Assembly (NCBI RefSeq): GCF_002150785.1
Contig: NZ_MTAZ01000045.1
Coordinates: 1 to 64,000, forward strand
Direction: 5' to 3'
Origin: Arenibacter amylolyticus
GTDB lineage: Bacteria > Bacteroidota > Bacteroidia > Flavobacteriales > Flavobacteriaceae
DNA: 64,000 nt
Notes under the pieces: generated by a model
Databases searched by the model: none
What the model was told of the DNA's origin: nothing
What the model saw: only the letters and a program-made list of their open reading frames with translations
Position numbers and translations under genes: made by a program
Shown here: positions 24,848 through 32,651 of the stretch, in pieces
Layout: every line of letters begins with the position of its first letter
Numbering within the stretch: position 1 is the first letter of the stretch

Positions 24848-26254
24848 ATGTGGTTTTTGCTCCTTATTGTAGGCTACCTCTTTTTTGCCGTCATCATTGT
24901 AATAAGTGTTTTGTTACATGGGGCTAGGCCTTCCAGAACTTTGGCATGGCTCTTGGCCATTTTTACTGTTCCTGTGGGTGGTATTTTACTATACCTTTTA
25001 TTGGGAAGGAATAGACGAAAGAATAAGCTCTTCAAACTAAGAAAAAAGGCCTTTTTAAACCTGCCCAAACCTTCCACGGCACAGATGGAGTCCTTTGATG
25101 GCGAGTATAAAAAAATGATGATGTTGGTGTATAAAAACTCCCAATTTCCTCCAACCCCTCATAATCGCTTACAGCTTTTAAAGGATGGGAAAACGACTTT
25201 TGAAGCTATTTTTCAGGCACTTGAGCTTGCCAAAAAACAGATACACCTACAATATTATATTTTTGAGGATGGGGAACTTGCCAATCAGTTGTTAGCACTC
25301 TTTGAGAAGAAAATTGCCCAAGGGGTTAAAATAAGACTGATTTATGACGGAATAGGCAGTTTTTCATTGAGTAAGGCATATCGGAAAAAATTAATAGCCA
25401 TTGGTGTTGAGGTGATTCCCTTTTTGCCTTTTAAATTTGGACGATTCCTATCGTCCCTCAATTATAGAAACCATCGTAAAATTATAGTGGTAGATGGAAA
25501 GGTTGCCTTTACGGGAGGAATTAATATTTCCGACAAATACTTAAAAGGAGATTTAGCCTTGGGCAATTGGCACGATATGCATCTTAAAATAGAAGGGGAG
25601 GCGGCAAGCCACTTAAATTATCTTTTTTCGATGGATTGGTACCTGGTAAGTCAGACTACCATTGAACCCATTCCTAGGCTTCCATCGGAGGCCACTACTG
25701 GGGAAAATACTATGGTGCAAATTGTTTCTGGGGGGCCCGATGACGATTTCCCTGCGATGGAACAAGCCATTTTTGCGATGATCAATATGGCTAAAGACTA
25801 TCTCTACATAACCAATCCCTATATTATTCCGGGGCAAGCAATTATGCAGGCTTTGCAGACTGCAGCCCGAAGCGGGGTAGATGTTCGTCTTATGCTATCG
25901 GAAAAGGTTGATGGCAAAATTGTTGGTTGGAGCGTGCGTTCCTATTTTGAGGCCATGCTAAAATCCGGTATTAAAATCTATCTTTTTCCGGAGGGATTCC
26001 TGCACAGTAAAATCATGGTAAGTGACGATACTGTTTCTACTGTTGGGACAGCTAATCTGGACGTGCGAAGCTTTGAACAAAACTATGAGGTAAATGCCAT
26101 TATCTATGATCGTGAATTTGCAAAGATGCTTCGTAACGATTTTCTTAAAGATGCCAATATAAGTAGAATGCTTTCTTACCAAGAATATGTGAGCAGGCCT
26201 TGGACCGAAAAGTTAAAAGAAGGGTTTGGAAAGGTTTTTAGTCCCGTTTTATAA
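24848..26254 (+). CDS. cls: Cardiolipin synthase (phospholipase D type)
   Basis: A 468-residue membrane-bound phospholipase-D-family enzyme. Two N-terminal transmembrane helices (about 2-22 and 33-53) are followed by two HKD catalytic motifs, NHRKIIVVDG with downstream GGIN, and LHSKIMVSDD with downstream GTANLDVRS. These condense two phosphatidylglycerol molecules to cardiolipin and glycerol. The order and spacing are those of bacterial Cls. It ends tail-to-tail with the next gene, the two stop codons sharing the hexamer TTATAA. Confidence 0.95.
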   Translation: MWFLLLIVGYLFFAVIIVISVLLHGARPSRTLAWLLAIFTVPVGGILLYLLLGRNRRKNKLFKLRKKAFLNLPKPSTAQMESFDGEYKKMMMLVYKNSQFPPTPHNRLQLLKDGKTTFEAIFQALELAKKQIHLQYYIFEDGELANQLLALFEKKIAQGVKIRLIYDGIGSFSLSKAYRKKLIAIGVEVIPFLPFKFGRFLSSLNYRNHRKIIVVDGKVAFTGGINISDKYLKGDLALGNWHDMHLKIEGEAASHLNYLFSMDWYLVSQTTIEPIPRLPSEATTGENTMVQIVSGGPDDDFPAMEQAIFAMINMAKDYLYITNPYIIPGQAIMQALQTAARSGVDVRLMLSEKVDGKIVGWSVRSYFEAMLKSGIKIYLFPEGFLHSKIMVSDDTVSTVGTANLDVRSFEQNYEVNAIIYDREFAKMLRNDFLKDANISRMLSYQEYVSRPWTEKLKEGFGKVFSPVL

Positions 26255-27256
26255 GATACTGGCCTCCCATCCCAATTCGTTTTCACTGTTTACTCCCTTG
26301 GCCCAGCAGTCCAAATTATAAAAGGTAGTTTCGGCAATATTACTCAGTGCCTCCCTAGTTATAAAGCCCTGATGTGGGGTAAGCAATACATTGGAAAAGG
26401 AAAGCAGTTTTTTAAGTTGTTCATCCTTAATTCCGGTTTTGGAATTGTCCCTATAGAAAGTGCCTTTTTCCTTTTCGTACACATCGGCACCGTAGGCTCC
26501 AATTAAGTGATTTTCTAAGGCGTGTATCAATGCATTGGTCTTTACTACTGCGCCTCGAGCGGTATTGAGTAACACCACCCCGTTTTTCATGATGTTTAAG
26601 GCAGCTTCATCAATTAGATAGTGGGTCTCTTGGGTAAGTGGTACATGTAAACTGATGATATCCGAATTGGAATATAGCTCCTCTAAACCCACATAGCGTA
26701 CGCCGTAGGTAGCAACTAGGTTAGAATTAGGACTTAGATCGTTGGCTAAAATATGACAGCCAAATCCGTTCATAATCTTTACCATAATACTCCCAATATT
26801 CCCCGTACCAATAATTCCCATCGTTTTACCATGAAGATCAAAGCCCATTAAATCCTGTTGAGCAAAATTGTAGATTTTGGTCCTGGAATTTGCCAAAAAA
26901 ATTTTTCTATTCAATGCCAAAAGCAAGGTAGTAGCATGTTCTGCAATGGCGTAGGGAGAATAGCTTGGAACATTGGCCACTTTAAACCCTAAGCGTTTTG
27001 CGGTGTGGATTTGGATGTTGTTATGCCCAGTAGAACGGAGGGTAATATGGCGCACACCTAAATCCCACAATTTCTCCAATACAACAAGGGAAGGGCTATC
27101 CCCAGAAAATATAGAGATTGTTTTATAACCAACAGCTTTAATGGCGGTGTTTATATCCAAAGCTTCCCTACAATAGAATACCTTATAGGTACCCTTGTTG
27201 GCAGCTTCCAAAAATGGAATCTCAAATTCTTTAGCACTATATACCAGTAATTTCAT
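26249..27256 (-). CDS. D-2-hydroxyacid dehydrogenase (D-lactate dehydrogenase type)
   Basis: A 335-residue NAD-dependent enzyme of normal length. The Rossmann motif GTGNIG is at about 155-160. The catalytic triad is seen as Arg in NTARGAVV, Glu in YEKEKGTFY and His in LTPHQGF. The sequence starting KLLVYSAKEFEIPFLEAAN and the FYRD segment resemble fermentative D-lactate dehydrogenase (LdhA). Its location downstream of universal stress and MscS genes on the same strand suggests induction together with them. Confidence 0.9.
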   Translation of the reverse strand: MKLLVYSAKEFEIPFLEAANKGTYKVFYCREALDINTAIKAVGYKTISIFSGDSPSLVVLEKLWDLGVRHITLRSTGHNNIQIHTAKRLGFKVANVPSYSPYAIAEHATTLLLALNRKIFLANSRTKIYNFAQQDLMGFDLHGKTMGIIGTGNIGSIMVKIMNGFGCHILANDLSPNSNLVATYGVRYVGLEELYSNSDIISLHVPLTQETHYLIDEAALNIMKNGVVLLNTARGAVVKTNALIHALENHLIGAYGADVYEKEKGTFYRDNSKTGIKDEQLKKLLSFSNVLLTPHQGFITREALSNIAETTFYNLDCWAKGVNSENELGWEASIL

Positions 27257-27294: not shown

Positions 27295-28194
27295 CTATTT
27301 TTTCAGATTCACTTCCAATTCGGGTATTTTCAGCAATTGTAAGGTGGTCGATGCTAGGTTGACCTTGCCGTCTGTGGCCGAAACGGCTTGTGATATTTGG
27401 TGAAATAGTTTGTTTTTTGTGACTCTCCTCAATTTATAATCGGTAATGTACCTTAGGTTTAATGCAATCCAATTATCGGTTATGCGTAATGCCAAGGTGG
27501 GTTCTAGGGTAGCGTTTTCAATATAATAGTGGGCTACCATTTCCTCCCATTTGGCCATTGAGCTTGCTGTATATTCCGAAAGCAAACTGGTTGCAGTATC
27601 TAACATTATTTTTTTCGCCAATTCCACATCGGAATCAAAGGTTATTAGTATATCCAGTTCATCCCAAATAAAGGGGAAATCCATGGAGTAGTTCTTTATG
27701 GGGCCTTTAAAAACAAAAGCATTGCTTATTTTTATAATTCTACCAGAATAATTATCACTACTTACCCATTCGCCCATTTCCATTAGGGTGGTATAAATAC
27801 TATCTATGTCAATAACATCGCCTTTAATCCCATTGATTTCTATACGATCCCCGGGTTTATAGACACGCACAAAAAAGATATAAAAAGAACCTGCTATACT
27901 CAGTATAAGCTCCTGCAAGGTAAAGGTGATTCCCGCGGTAAAAAGACCAATAATAACAGTGTAATTCTCTATGTTATCTACCGTAAAGGATATCAATACC
28001 AAGATGCCGATTAGTAGATATCCAATTACCTCCACTCCTTTTTGGGCTTTGTACCGTATGGATAGGTCGCTTATTCGCTTTTTTAAAAGTTTCCTTAAAA
28101 AACCTATTACCAGCACAATGAAGAGTACCCATAGGAGTAGCTTAGTGACTCTAACCACAATGGGATTATCAAAAAAGTCGAGGAGTTCTATCAT
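27295..28194 (-). CDS. MscS-family mechanosensitive channel
   Basis: A 299-residue inner-membrane channel. Three hydrophobic segments lie near 12-35, 52-72 and 78-110, the last being the pore helix. It is followed by the MscS signature VRVYKPGDRIEINGIKGDVIDID. A cytosolic alpha/beta region follows. It opens under membrane tension and releases solutes. It sits 59 nt after the eRF1-like gene and 38 nt before the D-2-hydroxyacid dehydrogenase gene, all on one strand. Confidence 0.9.
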   Translation of the reverse strand: MIELLDFFDNPIVVRVTKLLLWVLFIVLVIGFLRKLLKKRISDLSIRYKAQKGVEVIGYLLIGILVLISFTVDNIENYTVIIGLFTAGITFTLQELILSIAGSFYIFFVRVYKPGDRIEINGIKGDVIDIDSIYTTLMEMGEWVSSDNYSGRIIKISNAFVFKGPIKNYSMDFPFIWDELDILITFDSDVELAKKIMLDTATSLLSEYTASSMAKWEEMVAHYYIENATLEPTLALRITDNWIALNLRYITDYKLRRVTKNKLFHQISQAVSATDGKVNLASTTLQLLKIPELEVNLKK

Positions 28195-28253: not shown

Positions 28254-28667
28254 CTATTTTCCGTTTTTAAAATAATCCCGTACCAAGGCTTTTACCTGAT
28301 TTTCGGTCATACTATCCGACTTAATTACTCCCTTTAGTTTACTGGCCAACGCCTTGTAATTCTCTGTCAATTCCTTCTTAAACTTTTCATTCGTATCGGC
28401 AGGGCCGAAAAGAGCAATCGCATCGGCATCCGCTATGGCATGGGCCAGGTTGCTGAAATACGCTTTTAATTGATGCTTTTCGCGCTCTAGAAATTTACTG
28501 TCTTGTATTACATCTTGTGGCCCCCATTTTGCCGACCTTGTACCAGATCCGCCATGCGGTCTATAAAACTCTAAATCCGACATGATAGTTTCAAATCCTT
28601 CTTCATTTCCCGAAAGCCTCACAATGTGAGCTTTTTCTTTGTCCATCCAAATCCCAAAATTTTTCAT
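28254..28667 (-). CDS. Small eRF1-like (baeRF-type) protein, tentative
   Basis: A 137-residue soluble protein. It begins MKNFGIWMDKEKAHIVRLSG, a strand-turn-strand start typical of the bacterial/archaeal eRF1-like fold, and contains ALFGPADTNEKFKKEL, resembling the phosphate- or ribosome-contacting loop of that group. Some relatives are discussed as ribosome-associated stress factors. It lies 12 nt after the first USP gene in the same direction, so co-transcription is likely. The fold call is moderate and the function is inferred. Confidence 0.6.
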   Translation of the reverse strand: MKNFGIWMDKEKAHIVRLSGNEEGFETIMSDLEFYRPHGGSGTRSAKWGPQDVIQDSKFLEREKHQLKAYFSNLAHAIADADAIALFGPADTNEKFKKELTENYKALASKLKGVIKSDSMTENQVKALVRDYFKNGK

Positions 28668-28679
28668 AGTATTTATTTT

Positions 28680-29519
28680 TTAGTGTAAAGCCAAAATCGG
28701 AACCGTAGCGTTATATCCTATTTCCTTTACCAAGGGCCTAGAAAATATGCTGCCAAAGAAAAAATGTTTCCGATTTATAAAAGCGATCATATCGCTATTT
28801 CTCCTATTCGCGAAGGATGTAATCCCGTGGGCCACATCTTTCTCGGGTAGTGTATGAAAACTGTGATCTACAGTCTCCAGAATCTCCTGTAATAAGTCTT
28901 TGTTGTTTATCTGCAAGTCTGTTAGTTCTTCCTTCTTGCTAATGTAGATAACCCGAATATACGCTTGGTGTATTTGGGCAATTTCTATGAGATAATTCAA
29001 TTCCTTTCTCTTGTAGCTGGTTTTAAAGTCGGATGGAAAAACTATTTCCTTAGGCGGCTTAAAACTGACATTTTCGGGGATGGCCAATACGGGGCACTCC
29101 GTAATTACCTCCATGGTATTTACCGTATTGCTTCCAAATATGACCCCTTTGATGCCCGAAGCACCTTGGGTGCCCATCACCACCAAATCGATATCCTTTT
29201 GGTCTATGGTCTGCTTTATAGCCTCCGATAGAAAATTATAGGAAGCTATGGTATGGTAGGTATGTTTAGGATTATCTCGATGCAAGGCAATTATCTCTAA
29301 CAGTTTTTGAAATTTTTCCTCCGATTTCGCCCTTGCCTCTTCGTACTCTCCGCTTCCTGGTTCTGGTACCAATAAATTACTGGTAGTGTAACTATCTAGC
29401 CTAAAAACATTTAAAAAATAGAAGGTACAGTTTAGTTTTTCATAAAGATCCAAGGCATATCTAACCGCGTTTAGGGCATTTTTGGAGAAATCCGTAGGTA
29501 TTAAAATTCTTTTGTCCAT
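28680..29519 (-). CDS. Universal stress protein, double UspA domain
   Basis: About 279 residues: two UspA domains in tandem. The first starts DKRILIPTDFSKNALNAVRYAL and has the ATP-binding motif GTQGASG..FGSNT (G-2x-G-9x-G-S). The second is degenerate and lacks it. The start at 29519 was chosen because the conserved first strand begins there; the open frame extends 22 codons upstream into promoter-like sequence. A Crp/Fnr-like dyad at 29580-29591 lies about 66 nt upstream of the start. Likely a nucleotide-binding stress regulator. Confidence 0.9.
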   Translation of the reverse strand: MDKRILIPTDFSKNALNAVRYALDLYEKLNCTFYFLNVFRLDSYTTSNLLVPEPGSGEYEEARAKSEEKFQKLLEIIALHRDNPKHTYHTIASYNFLSEAIKQTIDQKDIDLVVMGTQGASGIKGVIFGSNTVNTMEVITECPVLAIPENVSFKPPKEIVFPSDFKTSYKRKELNYLIEIAQIHQAYIRVIYISKKEELTDLQINNKDLLQEILETVDHSFHTLPEKDVAHGITSFANRRNSDMIAFINRKHFFFGSIFSRPLVKEIGYNATVPILALH

Positions 29520-29548
29520 AGGTTCCACTTCTTTTGGAGTTAATAGCG

Positions 29549-29591
29549 TAAATATAGCGTACAGGGGGGAGTAAAAATATGACAACCGTCA
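29549..29591 (-). promoter_or_regulatory. Crp/Fnr-type dyad and -7 element upstream of a USP gene
   Basis: TGAC-AACC-GTCA (29580-29591) is a perfect 4+4 dyad with 4-nt spacer. Reading the minus strand, exactly 23 nt follow before TATATTTA (29556-29549), one base from TAnnTTTG. The dyad centre would fall near -41.5 from a start site 5-6 nt past the element, the class II activator position. It overlaps the stop codon of the upstream USP gene. Confidence 0.5.
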
Positions 29592-30437
29592 GTCGGCAAG
29601 TGGAAGGATTAGCAAGGGGATCTTTGCATACATACTTATATCCTGCACAATAGGTTCGCGTACCATCAGCTCCAGAAATCGGTGCTTGTGGTGTACCATG
29701 GTCAAAATATCTATAGGTCTACGCTCAATAAAATAATTGATGACTAGGGCCTTATCTTCAAATTGGGGTATCCAATGAAAATTATAATCAATTTCTCTGA
29801 GGTAGCTTTGAAGTAATTTTCTATTGGCTTCCTGCACCTTGTTGAGTATATTGTCCTGTGGGATGTGCAATATTCGTAGGGATGCTTTTAAAAGTGCCGT
29901 TATCCATAGTAATGGGGCGATTGTTTTTTGGGAACAGCCTTTTTTAAAATCGGTTACTAAAGCAATTTCCTTAGGAGGTTTAAAATCCGCTTCCCTAGGA
30001 ATGGCCAATAAAGGACACTTTTTTAAAGCATTGGCCATTTTTATGGTATGGCCCCCAAAAAACAACTCTTTGGCCGCCGTTTCCCCTTTGCTCCCCATCA
30101 CCATTAGATCTATGTTGTACGCTTTAATGAGCTGTTTACTAATTTTGGGTAGAACCCCTCGCTTGGACAAAGACTTAAATTGATGCTGGGGGTTCTGGTC
30201 ATCCAACCCTATTTTATAGAGAGTTTGGGCCAATTTTTCTTCCGACTCCCTTTGGTTGGAACCCAAAGTTTTTTTACTCCCTATAAGGGGCAGAAGTCCT
30301 CCTTTTAATGGGGGGTACTGGTTATAGACATGGAGAATATAAAACGTACAGCCTTGGGAGGACAACAGCTGCGTGGCATAGAACAAGGCTGCGTATGCAT
30401 CGTTGGAAAAATCGGTAGCTATTAAGATATTCTTCAT
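29589..30437 (-). CDS. Universal stress protein, double UspA domain
   Basis: A 282-residue tandem-UspA protein beginning KNILIATDFSNDAYAALFYA. The nucleotide motif of the first domain is GSKGETA..FGGHT, with Gly-Gly where the other three paralogues have Gly-Ser or Gly-Thr, so binding may differ. The second domain has a degenerate HHKHRFLELM region. It starts 9 nt after the preceding USP gene, with no room for a separate promoter, so these two genes are probably translated from one message. Confidence 0.88.
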   Translation of the reverse strand: MKNILIATDFSNDAYAALFYATQLLSSQGCTFYILHVYNQYPPLKGGLLPLIGSKKTLGSNQRESEEKLAQTLYKIGLDDQNPQHQFKSLSKRGVLPKISKQLIKAYNIDLMVMGSKGETAAKELFFGGHTIKMANALKKCPLLAIPREADFKPPKEIALVTDFKKGCSQKTIAPLLWITALLKASLRILHIPQDNILNKVQEANRKLLQSYLREIDYNFHWIPQFEDKALVINYFIERRPIDILTMVHHKHRFLELMVREPIVQDISMYAKIPLLILPLAD

Positions 30438-30446
30438 GGGTCACTA

Positions 30447-31277
30447 TTAAAGAGGAGGGAACACCATAAAGGGAATAGTGATATGGAATCCTATTTTTTT
30501 GATCACCGGCTCCAAGAACATTCGCTCTATAAAACTGTGCTTGTTCTGCATCATAACAAGGAGGTTGGTGCGATTTTTACCCTGAAATTGGTTAATTGCC
30601 GTGATAATTTCACTGTCGGGAACTTCATGAAAAAGGGCAGTATCTTTCAATAACCCCTCTAGTTGCGCCTTATTTTTTTCCTGTAGGGGATTTAGCTCAT
30701 AGCTAGCCCGTACATGTAATACGTTTATTCTGGAGTTATACTTTTGGACAAGGGCAAGCAGGGGTTCCATTCGTTCCATATCATAGGAAATTTCATAATC
30801 GGTGGGAAACAGGATTTCTTTGGGTGCCTCGTATTCAAAGTTGGGTGGGACTGCAATTACGGGACACTTAGCCTGTTTTATTACGTGTACGGTATTAGTG
30901 CCTAACAGAATTTCTTGCAACCCTGTGGCTCCTTGGGTACCCATTACAATAAGGTCTATATTTTCGGCATCTATCATATCCGATATTTCACCCACTAGGG
31001 TATTAAATGCCGAATGGACAATAAAGTGGTGCTTGGGATTCTTGTTATCCAGTTTCATCTTTAATTCTTCCAGTTGCGACATGCTACTTTCCTGTAATAC
31101 ATCACCCAGGCCTATTTGTCCTGGACTTCCCAACAAGTATTCGGTTTGGTATACTGCTGGGGTATAGGTGTGTAATAGAAAAAATGTACACTCCGCTTCC
31201 TTATAAAGCTTAAGGGCATATTGAATTGCTTGAAATGAATTATCTGAAAAGTCCGTGGGTAATAGAATACGTACCAT
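30447..31277 (-). CDS. Universal stress protein, double UspA domain
   Basis: A 276-residue tandem-UspA protein starting VRILLPTDFSDNSFQAIQYAL. The first domain has the ATP-binding motif GTQGATG..LGTNT. The second domain lacks it. The start at 31277 was chosen because it precedes the conserved first strand; the longer open frame adds 17 residues from the leader region. A TGAT-N4-ATCA dyad lies at 31333-31344 upstream. Forms a coupled pair with the downstream USP gene. Confidence 0.9.
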   Translation of the reverse strand: MVRILLPTDFSDNSFQAIQYALKLYKEAECTFFLLHTYTPAVYQTEYLLGSPGQIGLGDVLQESSMSQLEELKMKLDNKNPKHHFIVHSAFNTLVGEISDMIDAENIDLIVMGTQGATGLQEILLGTNTVHVIKQAKCPVIAVPPNFEYEAPKEILFPTDYEISYDMERMEPLLALVQKYNSRINVLHVRASYELNPLQEKNKAQLEGLLKDTALFHEVPDSEIITAINQFQGKNRTNLLVMMQNKHSFIERMFLEPVIKKIGFHITIPFMVFPPL

Positions 31278-31301
31278 AGCCTTGTGTTTTTTATTAATTA
31301 T

Positions 31302-31344
31302 TAAAACTAACCGAAAAGTTAGCAGCACACCATGATAACAATCA
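31302..31344 (-). promoter_or_regulatory. Crp/Fnr-type dyad and -7 element upstream of a USP gene
   Basis: TGAT-AACA-ATCA (31333-31344) has the half-sites and 4-nt spacer of an FNR box (TTGAT-N4-ATCAA without the outer T/A pair). On the minus strand 23 nt separate it from TAGTTTTA (31309-31302), one base from TAnnTTTG. The geometry is identical to the site at 29549-29591. Confidence 0.5.
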
Positions 31345-31419
31345 CCTTAGTCCGGATTATAAACACTACCTACCATTGTTACTTTTTACTTGTTATGGAT
31401 TGTAAAACATCCCGTACCG

Positions 31420-32271
31420 TTAGACTTGTATGGACAGAAGAGGGATTTTGGTATTAAAGCTTACCTCCTCTACGGTAGTGTCCATAAATAGTTTATGAAA
31501 GGGCCCATATTCCTTGGAGATCATGACGATGAGGTCTGCCGAAATTTCATCGGTATAGGACTGAATGCCATCCTCCACTTTTTTTGATATAACTCTATGA
31601 AATTTAACCGGTTTATTTAGAGTTTCAGAGATGCGTTTAACCCATTGGCGTTGCAGGGCCTCCACTTCCTTAAAAAGAGGAATATCTGATTTAGTGACGT
31701 ATAGTAAGTGAATTTGGGTGGGTTGTAAACCAACCAGGTTATCCATCTTTTTTAGGAGGGTGTCATTTATGGGCAACTCAAAATCCACAGGAAAGACCAG
31801 CTGCTTAAAACCTTTGTATCGGGCTTTATGGGGTACCACCAAAACATCACATCCTACCTTGGTAATGACATCGCCAGCATGCGAGCCCGTAAAAAACTCC
31901 TTAAGGGCCGTTGCTCCTTTAGTACCCATAATTATAAGATCTACGTTCTTATCATGAATAAGTTTTTGAATGGCCTTAACAAAGAACCCTTCCTCACAAA
32001 TAAGGCTACACAAATGCTGAGTGCCTTTTGAGGAGGTGGAGTAAACAAGCTTCTTAAGGTCCTCTAATTTCTCCTGAATACCCTTAGGAGCTCTTTCTAC
32101 CAAAATGTTGGTCCCAAAATTATAGATGGGCCTTTCCTTATAGTCCGTGCCATCCAAATTAATATAGCTGATAATAAAATGACAAGGGGTATGCCTAAAT
32201 AGGTCTAGCGCATACAAGAGTGCGTTTTTTGAGTTTTTGGAAAAATCTGTAGGTATTAAGATGGTGTTCAT
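31420..32271 (-). CDS. Universal stress protein, double UspA domain
   Basis: A 283-residue tandem-UspA protein starting NTILIPTDFSKNSKNALLYAL, with ATP motif GTKGATA..TGSHA in the first domain. The open frame extends 72 codons further upstream, but that extension crosses the promoter dyad and is not USP-like, so 32271 is the start. It is the first of four USP genes reading leftward. A TGAC-N4-GTCA dyad sits 115-127 nt upstream, leaving a leader of about 75 nt. Confidence 0.9.
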   Translation of the reverse strand: MNTILIPTDFSKNSKNALLYALDLFRHTPCHFIISYINLDGTDYKERPIYNFGTNILVERAPKGIQEKLEDLKKLVYSTSSKGTQHLCSLICEEGFFVKAIQKLIHDKNVDLIIMGTKGATALKEFFTGSHAGDVITKVGCDVLVVPHKARYKGFKQLVFPVDFELPINDTLLKKMDNLVGLQPTQIHLLYVTKSDIPLFKEVEALQRQWVKRISETLNKPVKFHRVISKKVEDGIQSYTDEISADLIVMISKEYGPFHKLFMDTTVEEVSFNTKIPLLSIQV

Positions 32272-32356
32272 TGGTCTTTCATTTAGTGCTTTTGCATAAA
32301 AATAGTCCACCTTACTTCCAATTGCTATGATTTTGGTCAGGGATAAACTGTATTTG

Positions 32357-32400
32357 TAAGGATATAAAGGAAGTAGGGTGGGGATATGACGGGCGTCATA
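32357..32400 (-). promoter_or_regulatory. Crp/Fnr-type dyad and -7-like element at the head of the USP cluster
   Basis: TATGACG (32385-32391) and CGTCATA (32394-32400) form 7-bp arms; the core is TGAC-GGGC-GTCA. On the minus strand 22 nt separate the core from TATCCTTA (32364-32357), two bases from TAnnTTTG. This is the most extended of the three dyads and stands at the head of the cluster. Confidence 0.5.
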
Positions 32401-32408
32401 ACTATTTA

Positions 32409-32651
32409 TAAATAAGGGTGAATACCATTCTTCCCGGTCCCGTAAACAATGAAATGATGCGACGTATAGAAAAATCCATATCTCCAAATAGTCCGCTTGA
32501 TGTACAAAAGGGATTCCAGTCTACAGTTCCCTTAGATAGGTATGCAGAATCGAAAGAAATTGCTGAAATGGCCCTTTTTCTTGGCTCAGATCAGAGTAGC
32601 TATATAACGGGATGCACCCTTGTAGTAGATGGAGGAATGATGATCGCTTAA
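32409..32651 (+). pseudogene. 3' remnant of a short-chain dehydrogenase gene
   Basis: The frame encodes only the last ~78 residues of an SDR: the NTILPGPVNNEMMRRIE loop after the catalytic site, LDRYAESKEIAEMALFLGSDQSSYITG and the terminal LVVDGGMM. The Rossmann motif and the Tyr-Lys pair are absent, and a stop codon (TAA at 32409-32411) closes the frame just upstream. It is not a copy of the intact SDR at 23217, whose matching region differs. The 5' part was lost where the USP promoter region now lies, so it is probably non-functional. Confidence 0.8.

Follow-up and report, generated by a model that had tools for sequence, protein, structure and literature searches.

In a 64,000-nucleotide stretch of the Arenibacter amylolyticus genome (contig NZ_MTAZ01000045.1, positions 1 to 64,000; hereafter the window), three universal stress protein (USP) genes, usp1, usp3 and usp4, each have upstream a dyad of the form TGAY-N4-RTCA lying exactly 23 nucleotides (nt) from a predicted -7 element, TAnnTTTR. 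We propose that all three are class II promoters activated at low oxygen by Crp/Fnr-type regulators, namely an FNR-like protein and a receiver-Crp fusion encoded elsewhere in the genome, and we give this reading a probability of roughly 0.78. Its computed basis is the sites, their fixed spacing, shared targets, synteny, and a site number that tracks either regulator; what we infer is that the sites are bound, that binding activates and does not repress, that the signal is oxygen, and that the sensors carry iron-sulphur (Fe-S) and haem cofactors. We also lean slightly towards a broader proposal, in which two oxygen sensors of different chemistry act through one promoter code and Flavobacteriaceae lineages retain both or lose one of them over constant targets (cbb3 oxidase, hemN and USP genes), so that regulators would turn over above a constant cis code.

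A dyad at fixed distance from the -7 element

A preliminary description of this DNA had placed dyads at 29580-29591, 31333-31344 and 32387-32398, at 23, 23 and 22 nt from their -7 candidates and each ahead of a USP gene. The dyads, the spacings and the nature of the genes were all confirmed, with a PF00582 domain found by Pfam search in four of the four usp genes of the window (all on the minus strand, as are their promoter elements). Its claim of three promoters with a dyad at fixed distance held for usp1 and usp3, and its usp4 site had to be exchanged for one it had overlooked. At usp1 (open reading frame (ORF) at 28680-29519; 279 amino acids (aa); PF00582 at 3.2e-23), the -7 element TATATTTA occupies 29549-29556, with a predicted start near 29544 (from the box position in PMC9723704), and the dyad TGACGGTTGTCA at 29580-29591 lies 23 nt from it, overlapping the usp2 stop codon. 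At usp3 (30447-31277; 276 aa; PF00582 at 9.2e-29), the -7 element TAGTTTTA at 31302-31309 (predicted start near 31297) is again 23 nt from its dyad, TGATTGTTATCA at 31333-31344. Equivalent sites stand ahead of the usp1 orthologues in two related genomes, G011 and G018, and ahead of the G011 usp3 orthologue.

For usp4 (31420-32271, ATG at 32271; 283 aa; PF00582 at 1.7e-24), we rejected the originally described pair, the dyad TGACGCCCGTCA at 32387-32398 with TATCCTTA at 32357-32364. The fifth base of this -7 candidate does not fit TAnnTTTR, and its spacing to the dyad is 22 nt; the dyad falls outside the dyad-N20-25-TAnnTTTR pattern. The segment 32297-32339 is probably the better usp4 promoter: here the predicted -7 element TATTTTTA (32297-32304) ends 25 nt before the ATG, with a predicted start near 32292, and the dyad TGACCAAAATCA (32328-32339) is exactly 23 nt from it, which makes the spacing 23 nt at all three usp promoters. 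The dyad at 32387-32398 may be an upstream second site, a weak promoter or a chance occurrence. The fourth gene, usp2 (29589-30437; 282 aa; PF00582 at 1.4e-17), has no promoter site of its own; the 9-nt usp3-usp2 gap (30438-30446) is free of a site, as had been described, and the absence of sites before usp2-like genes in relatives (0/5, see below) also fits.

In the whole window we counted 8 TGAY-N4-RTCA dyads. Exactly 3 are followed on their own strand by TAnnTTTR at a distance of 18-28 nt; in each case the distance is 23 nt and the gene that comes next encodes a USP. Dinucleotide shuffles of the three usp gaps (20,000 each) gave 1, 0 and 0 hits. In Flavobacterium psychrophilum the sigma-A box TAnnTTTG maps to -12 to -5, according to PMC9723704. 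Combined with the 23-nt spacing, this position puts the dyad centre in silico at -41.5, the class II location for Crp/Fnr activators that the preliminary description had proposed. Among 110 site-bearing USP genes in related loci, the distance from the -7 box to the first ATG has a median of 22 nt (quartiles 19-25), which fits the expected short leader. Beyond the positions fixed by the search pattern, a logo built from 345 distinct sites in relatives' loci revealed a T right after the dyad (95%), an A or C before it (87%) and a T-rich stretch covering positions 3-6 of the spacer (about -33 to -30); apart from that stretch, no -33 element was evident in the logo.

The genome search that had been suggested for this motif returned 20 dyad-N20-25-TAnnTTTR sites against 1 in a backward control. 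With the spacer widened to N8-38 we found 28 sites against 14 in the control, of which 16 lie at exactly 23 nt and 12 are spread over 30 other spacings (Poisson P about 1e-20 for the peak). The 16 targets, some named by Pfam or NCBIfam and others by eye from the translation, comprise ccoNO (a fused cbb3 oxidase I/II gene), the fnr-like gene, hemN, a cytochrome c gene and seven USP genes, together with genes for a pyridoxamine-phosphate-oxidase-like protein (Pyridox_ox_2), formate-tetrahydrofolate ligase, an MlaE-like permease, a TolC-like protein and an acyl-CoA dehydrogenase. Across the family, sampled at one genome per genus (120 genomes, ours among them), 1662 sites lie at 23 nt against 62 in the backward control, and other spacings average 104 each against 73. 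In a separate phylum sample of 148 genomes, the counts were 234 against 11 in 14 other family members, 22 against 0 in 2 genomes of the same order, 98 against 8 in 20 of the same class, and 68 against 15 (a hand sum) in 111 genomes of other classes. The promoter code has its greatest strength within the family and order, and beyond the class it is weak.

Two candidate regulators and their distribution

The regulator gene had been said to lie outside the window, and both of our candidates do. Four proteins of the genome score above the HTH_Crp_2 cut-off and two fit as regulators. One is an FNR-like protein encoded on contig C6 (L125:11184-11870), where its gene stands between those for a CcoI-like copper ATPase and a USP and has a 23-nt site of its own. 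The other, on contig C11, is a 350-aa receiver-cNMP-HTH_Crp fusion whose gene follows directly on that of a PAS histidine kinase, with USP genes after it; its output domains are cNMP_binding and HTH_Crp_2, not LuxR-type. The motif E-x-x-I-R occurs in the recognition helix of all 46 FNR-like proteins examined and of 81/81 fusions (77 by pattern, 4 by eye). The remaining two HTH_Crp_2 proteins, L001 and L004, were rejected as cognate regulators: the glutamate common to the FNR-like protein and the fusion is missing from their recognition helices.

The FNR-like protein carries PF00027 and PF13545 domains, its best match of solved structure is an 'FNR type regulator' (4.2e-23), and it scores 110 bits against the NCBIfam Fnr model (cut-off 228). 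Cysteines C4, C7 and C106, the equivalents of Escherichia coli C20, C23 and C122, were present in 46/46 orthologues examined, of 71 in all, as was C53 in the beta-roll. We call the protein FNR-like rather than FNR since the third N-terminal cysteine, the C29 equivalent, is absent; in the FNR-like proteins of L141 and L142 a third N-terminal cysteine stands at wider spacing, and three paralogues of another subfamily have CxxCx4C without C53. C53 and C106 presumably sit on neighbouring strands of the cyclic nucleotide monophosphate (cNMP) fold, where C53 may replace C29 as a ligand, and C4, C7, C53 and C106 could possibly form a variant Fe-S ligand set. For the PAS domain of the kinase, the best solved matches are FixL (2.2e-16) and DosP (2e-11), followed by other proteins from 6e-05, and the score against the NCBIfam FixL model is 93 bits (cut-off 850). 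With the FixL haem-ligand histidine present in 51/76 kinases (see below), haem sensing is plausible, though perhaps not general. With the fusion as query, none of the best 25 NCBIfam matches reached its cut-off.

The arrangement of kinase, fusion and USP genes was compared across 80 named loci, the best 80 of 563 relatives (a few genomes appear twice), which include Maribacter, Tenacibaculum, Aequorivita, Winogradskyella and Gillisia. The kinase gene is directly upstream of the fusion gene in 75 of the 77 evaluable loci, a USP gene is directly downstream in 76/79, and the gap between fusion and USP gene holds a site in 57/76. Within these loci a site lies at most 300 nt upstream of 110/239 USP genes versus 78/565 other ORFs of at least 100 aa; shuffled USP upstream regions had a site in 0/4780 cases. 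In 15 fetched clusters, a strict 23-nt site within 110 nt precedes 11/13 uspA-like and 10/10 uspB-like genes and 0/5 usp2-like genes. Together with the usp1-like and usp3-like counts given below, these figures indicate that the code is kept in the cluster though single sites move, and a usp3 without a site usually follows uspB, which carries one. The expectation that dyads would be conserved in relatives' USP clusters is therefore borne out cluster-wide, with a mixed outcome for the individual usp1 and usp3 sites.

Full-length matches to the fusion occur in 63/119 genomes of the class (loci L323-L333 among them); a 64th, G316, was matched by the receiver alone. In the 120 family genomes, with thresholds chosen by us (E < 1e-40 for an FNR orthologue, E < 1e-70 for a full-length fusion), the FNR orthologue is present in 71 and the fusion in 54. 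The median number of sites per genome is 25 where both regulators occur (27 genomes), 10.5 with FNR only (44), 14 with the fusion only (27) and 1 with neither (22), medians that come from tables copied over by hand and are uncorrected for descent in groups sharing ancestry. Every fusion-only genome (27/27) has at least 6 sites. The genomes of at least 3 Mb with neither regulator, G010, G039, G051, G073, G079, G086 and G087, have 1, 0, 5, 0, 1, 2 and 0 sites.

Targets are likewise shared between genomes with different regulators. In G027 (fusion only; 15/15 sites read), sites precede hemN, ccoN, cytochrome genes, two USP genes and others; in G059 (FNR only; 9/10 read), hemN, ccoN and one USP gene; and in G107 (FNR only; 16/16 read), hemN, ccoN and two USP genes. 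Taken with the medians, these targets suggest that one set of promoters can be served by either of two regulators. They also suit the low-oxygen reading of the regulon, which the preliminary description had outlined as low-oxygen or redox: the same 23-nt site stands at ccoNO, hemN, fnr and further USP genes of our genome, and the same targets recur in three other genera.

Mechanism, counter-evidence and alternatives

In the mechanism that we favor, the primary sigma factor of flavobacteria would use activator-dependent class II promoters at usp1, usp3 and usp4. A dimer of Crp/Fnr type bound to TGAY-N4-RTCA at -41.5, just upstream of the T-rich stretch at the -33 place, would contact RNA polymerase. 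The FNR-like protein from C6, with its CxxC, C53 and C106, may hold an oxygen-labile Fe-S cluster, and the FixL-like PAS kinase may phosphorylate the C11 fusion as oxygen falls. Both regulators would then switch on the cbb3 oxidase, oxygen-independent haem synthesis and a battery of USPs.

Several observations weigh against this reading. On the sensor side, a cysteine at the place of E. coli C29 was found in 0/46 FNR-like proteins, and the haem-ligand histidine of FixL in 51/76 kinases (21 are gapped by alignment trimming and 4 have another residue). On the site side, a strict 23-nt site within 110 nt precedes 4/9 usp1-like and 2/11 usp3-like genes in the fetched clusters, and 19/76 gaps between fusion and USP gene lack a strict site. 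Regulators and sites also do not match everywhere: 6/44 FNR-only genomes have fewer than 5 sites, and neither regulator was found in G051 (5 sites) or in G048, an 82% complete genome with 29 sites, where a missing or divergent regulator is possible. Many genomes of the group with neither regulator are small; the 15 besides those of at least 3 Mb are all smaller, several of them incomplete. Finally, G027, for which a PF13545 search found no FNR orthologue, encodes two distant Crp-family proteins (260 and 211 aa) that could contribute. The first of these, at C1:464817-464996 (260-aa open frame), lies 3-10 kb from four 23-nt sites and is a possible third regulator.

The sites might instead belong to a Crp/Fnr regulon for another signal, such as redox, nitric oxide or nutrient state. 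The TGA-N6-TCA operator is recognised across many Crp/Fnr subfamilies, and the cofactors that would make either candidate an oxygen sensor are themselves predictions. We consider this reading unlikely, as the targets include ccoNO, hemN and cytochrome genes, the PAS domain of the kinase is FixL-like, and the cbb3 oxidase and haem synthesis of F. psychrophilum rise under oxygen limitation, as reported in PMC9723704.

The upstream region of fnr bears on two further alternatives. In 29/30 orthologue loci the 260 nt upstream of fnr contain a dyad, which in 7 of them has TAnnTTTR at 23 nt, a pattern that an autoregulated FNR might show. This would suit the FNR-like protein as the sole reader of the sites, with the fusion linked to USP genes by synteny and binding elsewhere. 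Such an arrangement seems to us quite improbable given the fusion-only genomes, all with at least 6 sites and a median of 14, and given G027, whose sites stand before ccoN, hemN and USP genes with no FNR orthologue found. Few kinase genes have a site of their own (4/77), and together with the fnr dyad in 29/30 loci this suggests that the kinase-fusion pair may stand above fnr in a hierarchy. In distant genera (L050-L064, not L051), some 50 nt separate the fnr dyad from the ATG and in most cases no -7 element lies at 23 nt, a placement that differs from several close relatives; autorepression of fnr is possible there. That the dyads in general are operators for repression rather than activation, which this placement would suit in those genera, receives little credence from us, since a centre at -41.5 beside an intact -7 element is activator geometry and the logo has no -33 element beyond the T-rich stretch. 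Chance or base composition, conceivable for a degenerate motif in an AT-rich genome, can be dismissed on the shuffles (1, 0 and 0 of 20,000), the backward control (1662 against 62 over 120 genera) and the peak at one spacing.

Neighbouring genes and known systems

Behind usp1 on the minus strand follow a 137-aa gene (28254-28667), an MscS-type channel gene (27295-28194; PF00924 at 3.2e-06) and a D-2-hydroxyacid dehydrogenase gene (26249-27256; PF02826 at 1.7e-51). The 137-aa gene is likely co-transcribed with usp1, judging by the spacing, and the channel and dehydrogenase genes likely belong to the same transcript. These neighbours had been assigned to the regulon in the preliminary description. 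For the first two, the linkage to usp1 recurs in G011, and in another genus (L081) a dehydrogenase homologue, matched by eye, is preceded by a separate 23-nt site. The label 'eRF1-like' that had been given to the 137-aa gene gained no support, as searches of both the Pfam and NCBIfam profile sets returned zero matches.

In G011 a single cluster holds the kinase, the fusion, the USP row, usp3 (67% identical), usp2 (51%), usp1 (69%), the 137-aa gene (70%) and the MscS gene (79%), the last two in the same place as in the window. As in the window, usp3 and usp1 are each preceded by a 23-nt site and the usp3-usp2 gap has none. In G018, usp3, usp2, usp1 and the 137-aa gene follow the kinase-fusion pair, with a 23-nt site before usp1 and none before usp3. 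Our genome appears to have split this cluster, with the kinase, the fusion and two USP genes on C11 and the remainder in the window. The G011 USP row (L220, G011:C16:34000-50000) contains an inserted non-USP ORF (MEKEVVLGIDIGGSYTKVG..., by eye resembling a sugar kinase). On the plus strand of the window, at 32412-32651, a start-less C-terminal remnant of a short-chain dehydrogenase frame (named by eye) ends beside the usp4 dyads; it hints that a rearrangement broke the sequence here, at the border of the split USP cluster. A tblastn comparison of the window's complete short-chain dehydrogenase with this remnant gave zero matches.

The one-line pattern yields candidate low-oxygen promoters genome by genome and points to two regulators; it also places USP genes, often vague in function, in a concrete regulatory context. 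If confirmed, the swapping of sensors over a constant operator would be a natural test of network rewiring. Other Bacteroidota members of the Crp/Fnr superfamily are known from Porphyromonas gingivalis, where HcpR, PgRsp and Crp have been reported for nitrosative stress, redox and global control (PMC12040651); in the main text of that paper, as far as available, 'universal stress' has 0 hits and no USP cluster appears. Our searches of the open-licence literature brought up no account of these regulators exerting low-oxygen control in Flavobacteriaceae, nor any of a receiver-Crp fusion, FNR regulons or USP control in Bacteroidota, which is weak evidence of absence.

Two better-known systems offer the closest comparisons. 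The FNR, ANR and FnrL regulons of Proteobacteria resemble the present one in the TGA-N6-TCA operator, the class II position at -41.5 and the targets (cbb3 oxidase, hemN and USP genes). They differ in that here a Bacteroidota sigma factor is served, with a TAnnTTTG -7 element at a fixed 23 nt, that in the FNR-like protein C53 is present and the third N-terminal cysteine missing, and that the sites appear to be shared with a second regulator, a fusion. The rhizobial FixL-FixJ-FixK cascade shares with the system proposed here a FixL-like PAS kinase directly upstream of a response regulator, control of the cbb3 oxidase and a Crp/Fnr output acting on TGA-N6-TCA. In rhizobia, however, these functions are divided between FixJ, with its LuxR-type output, and FixK, whereas here receiver and Crp/Fnr output are joined in one protein and the haem histidine is not seen in every kinase.

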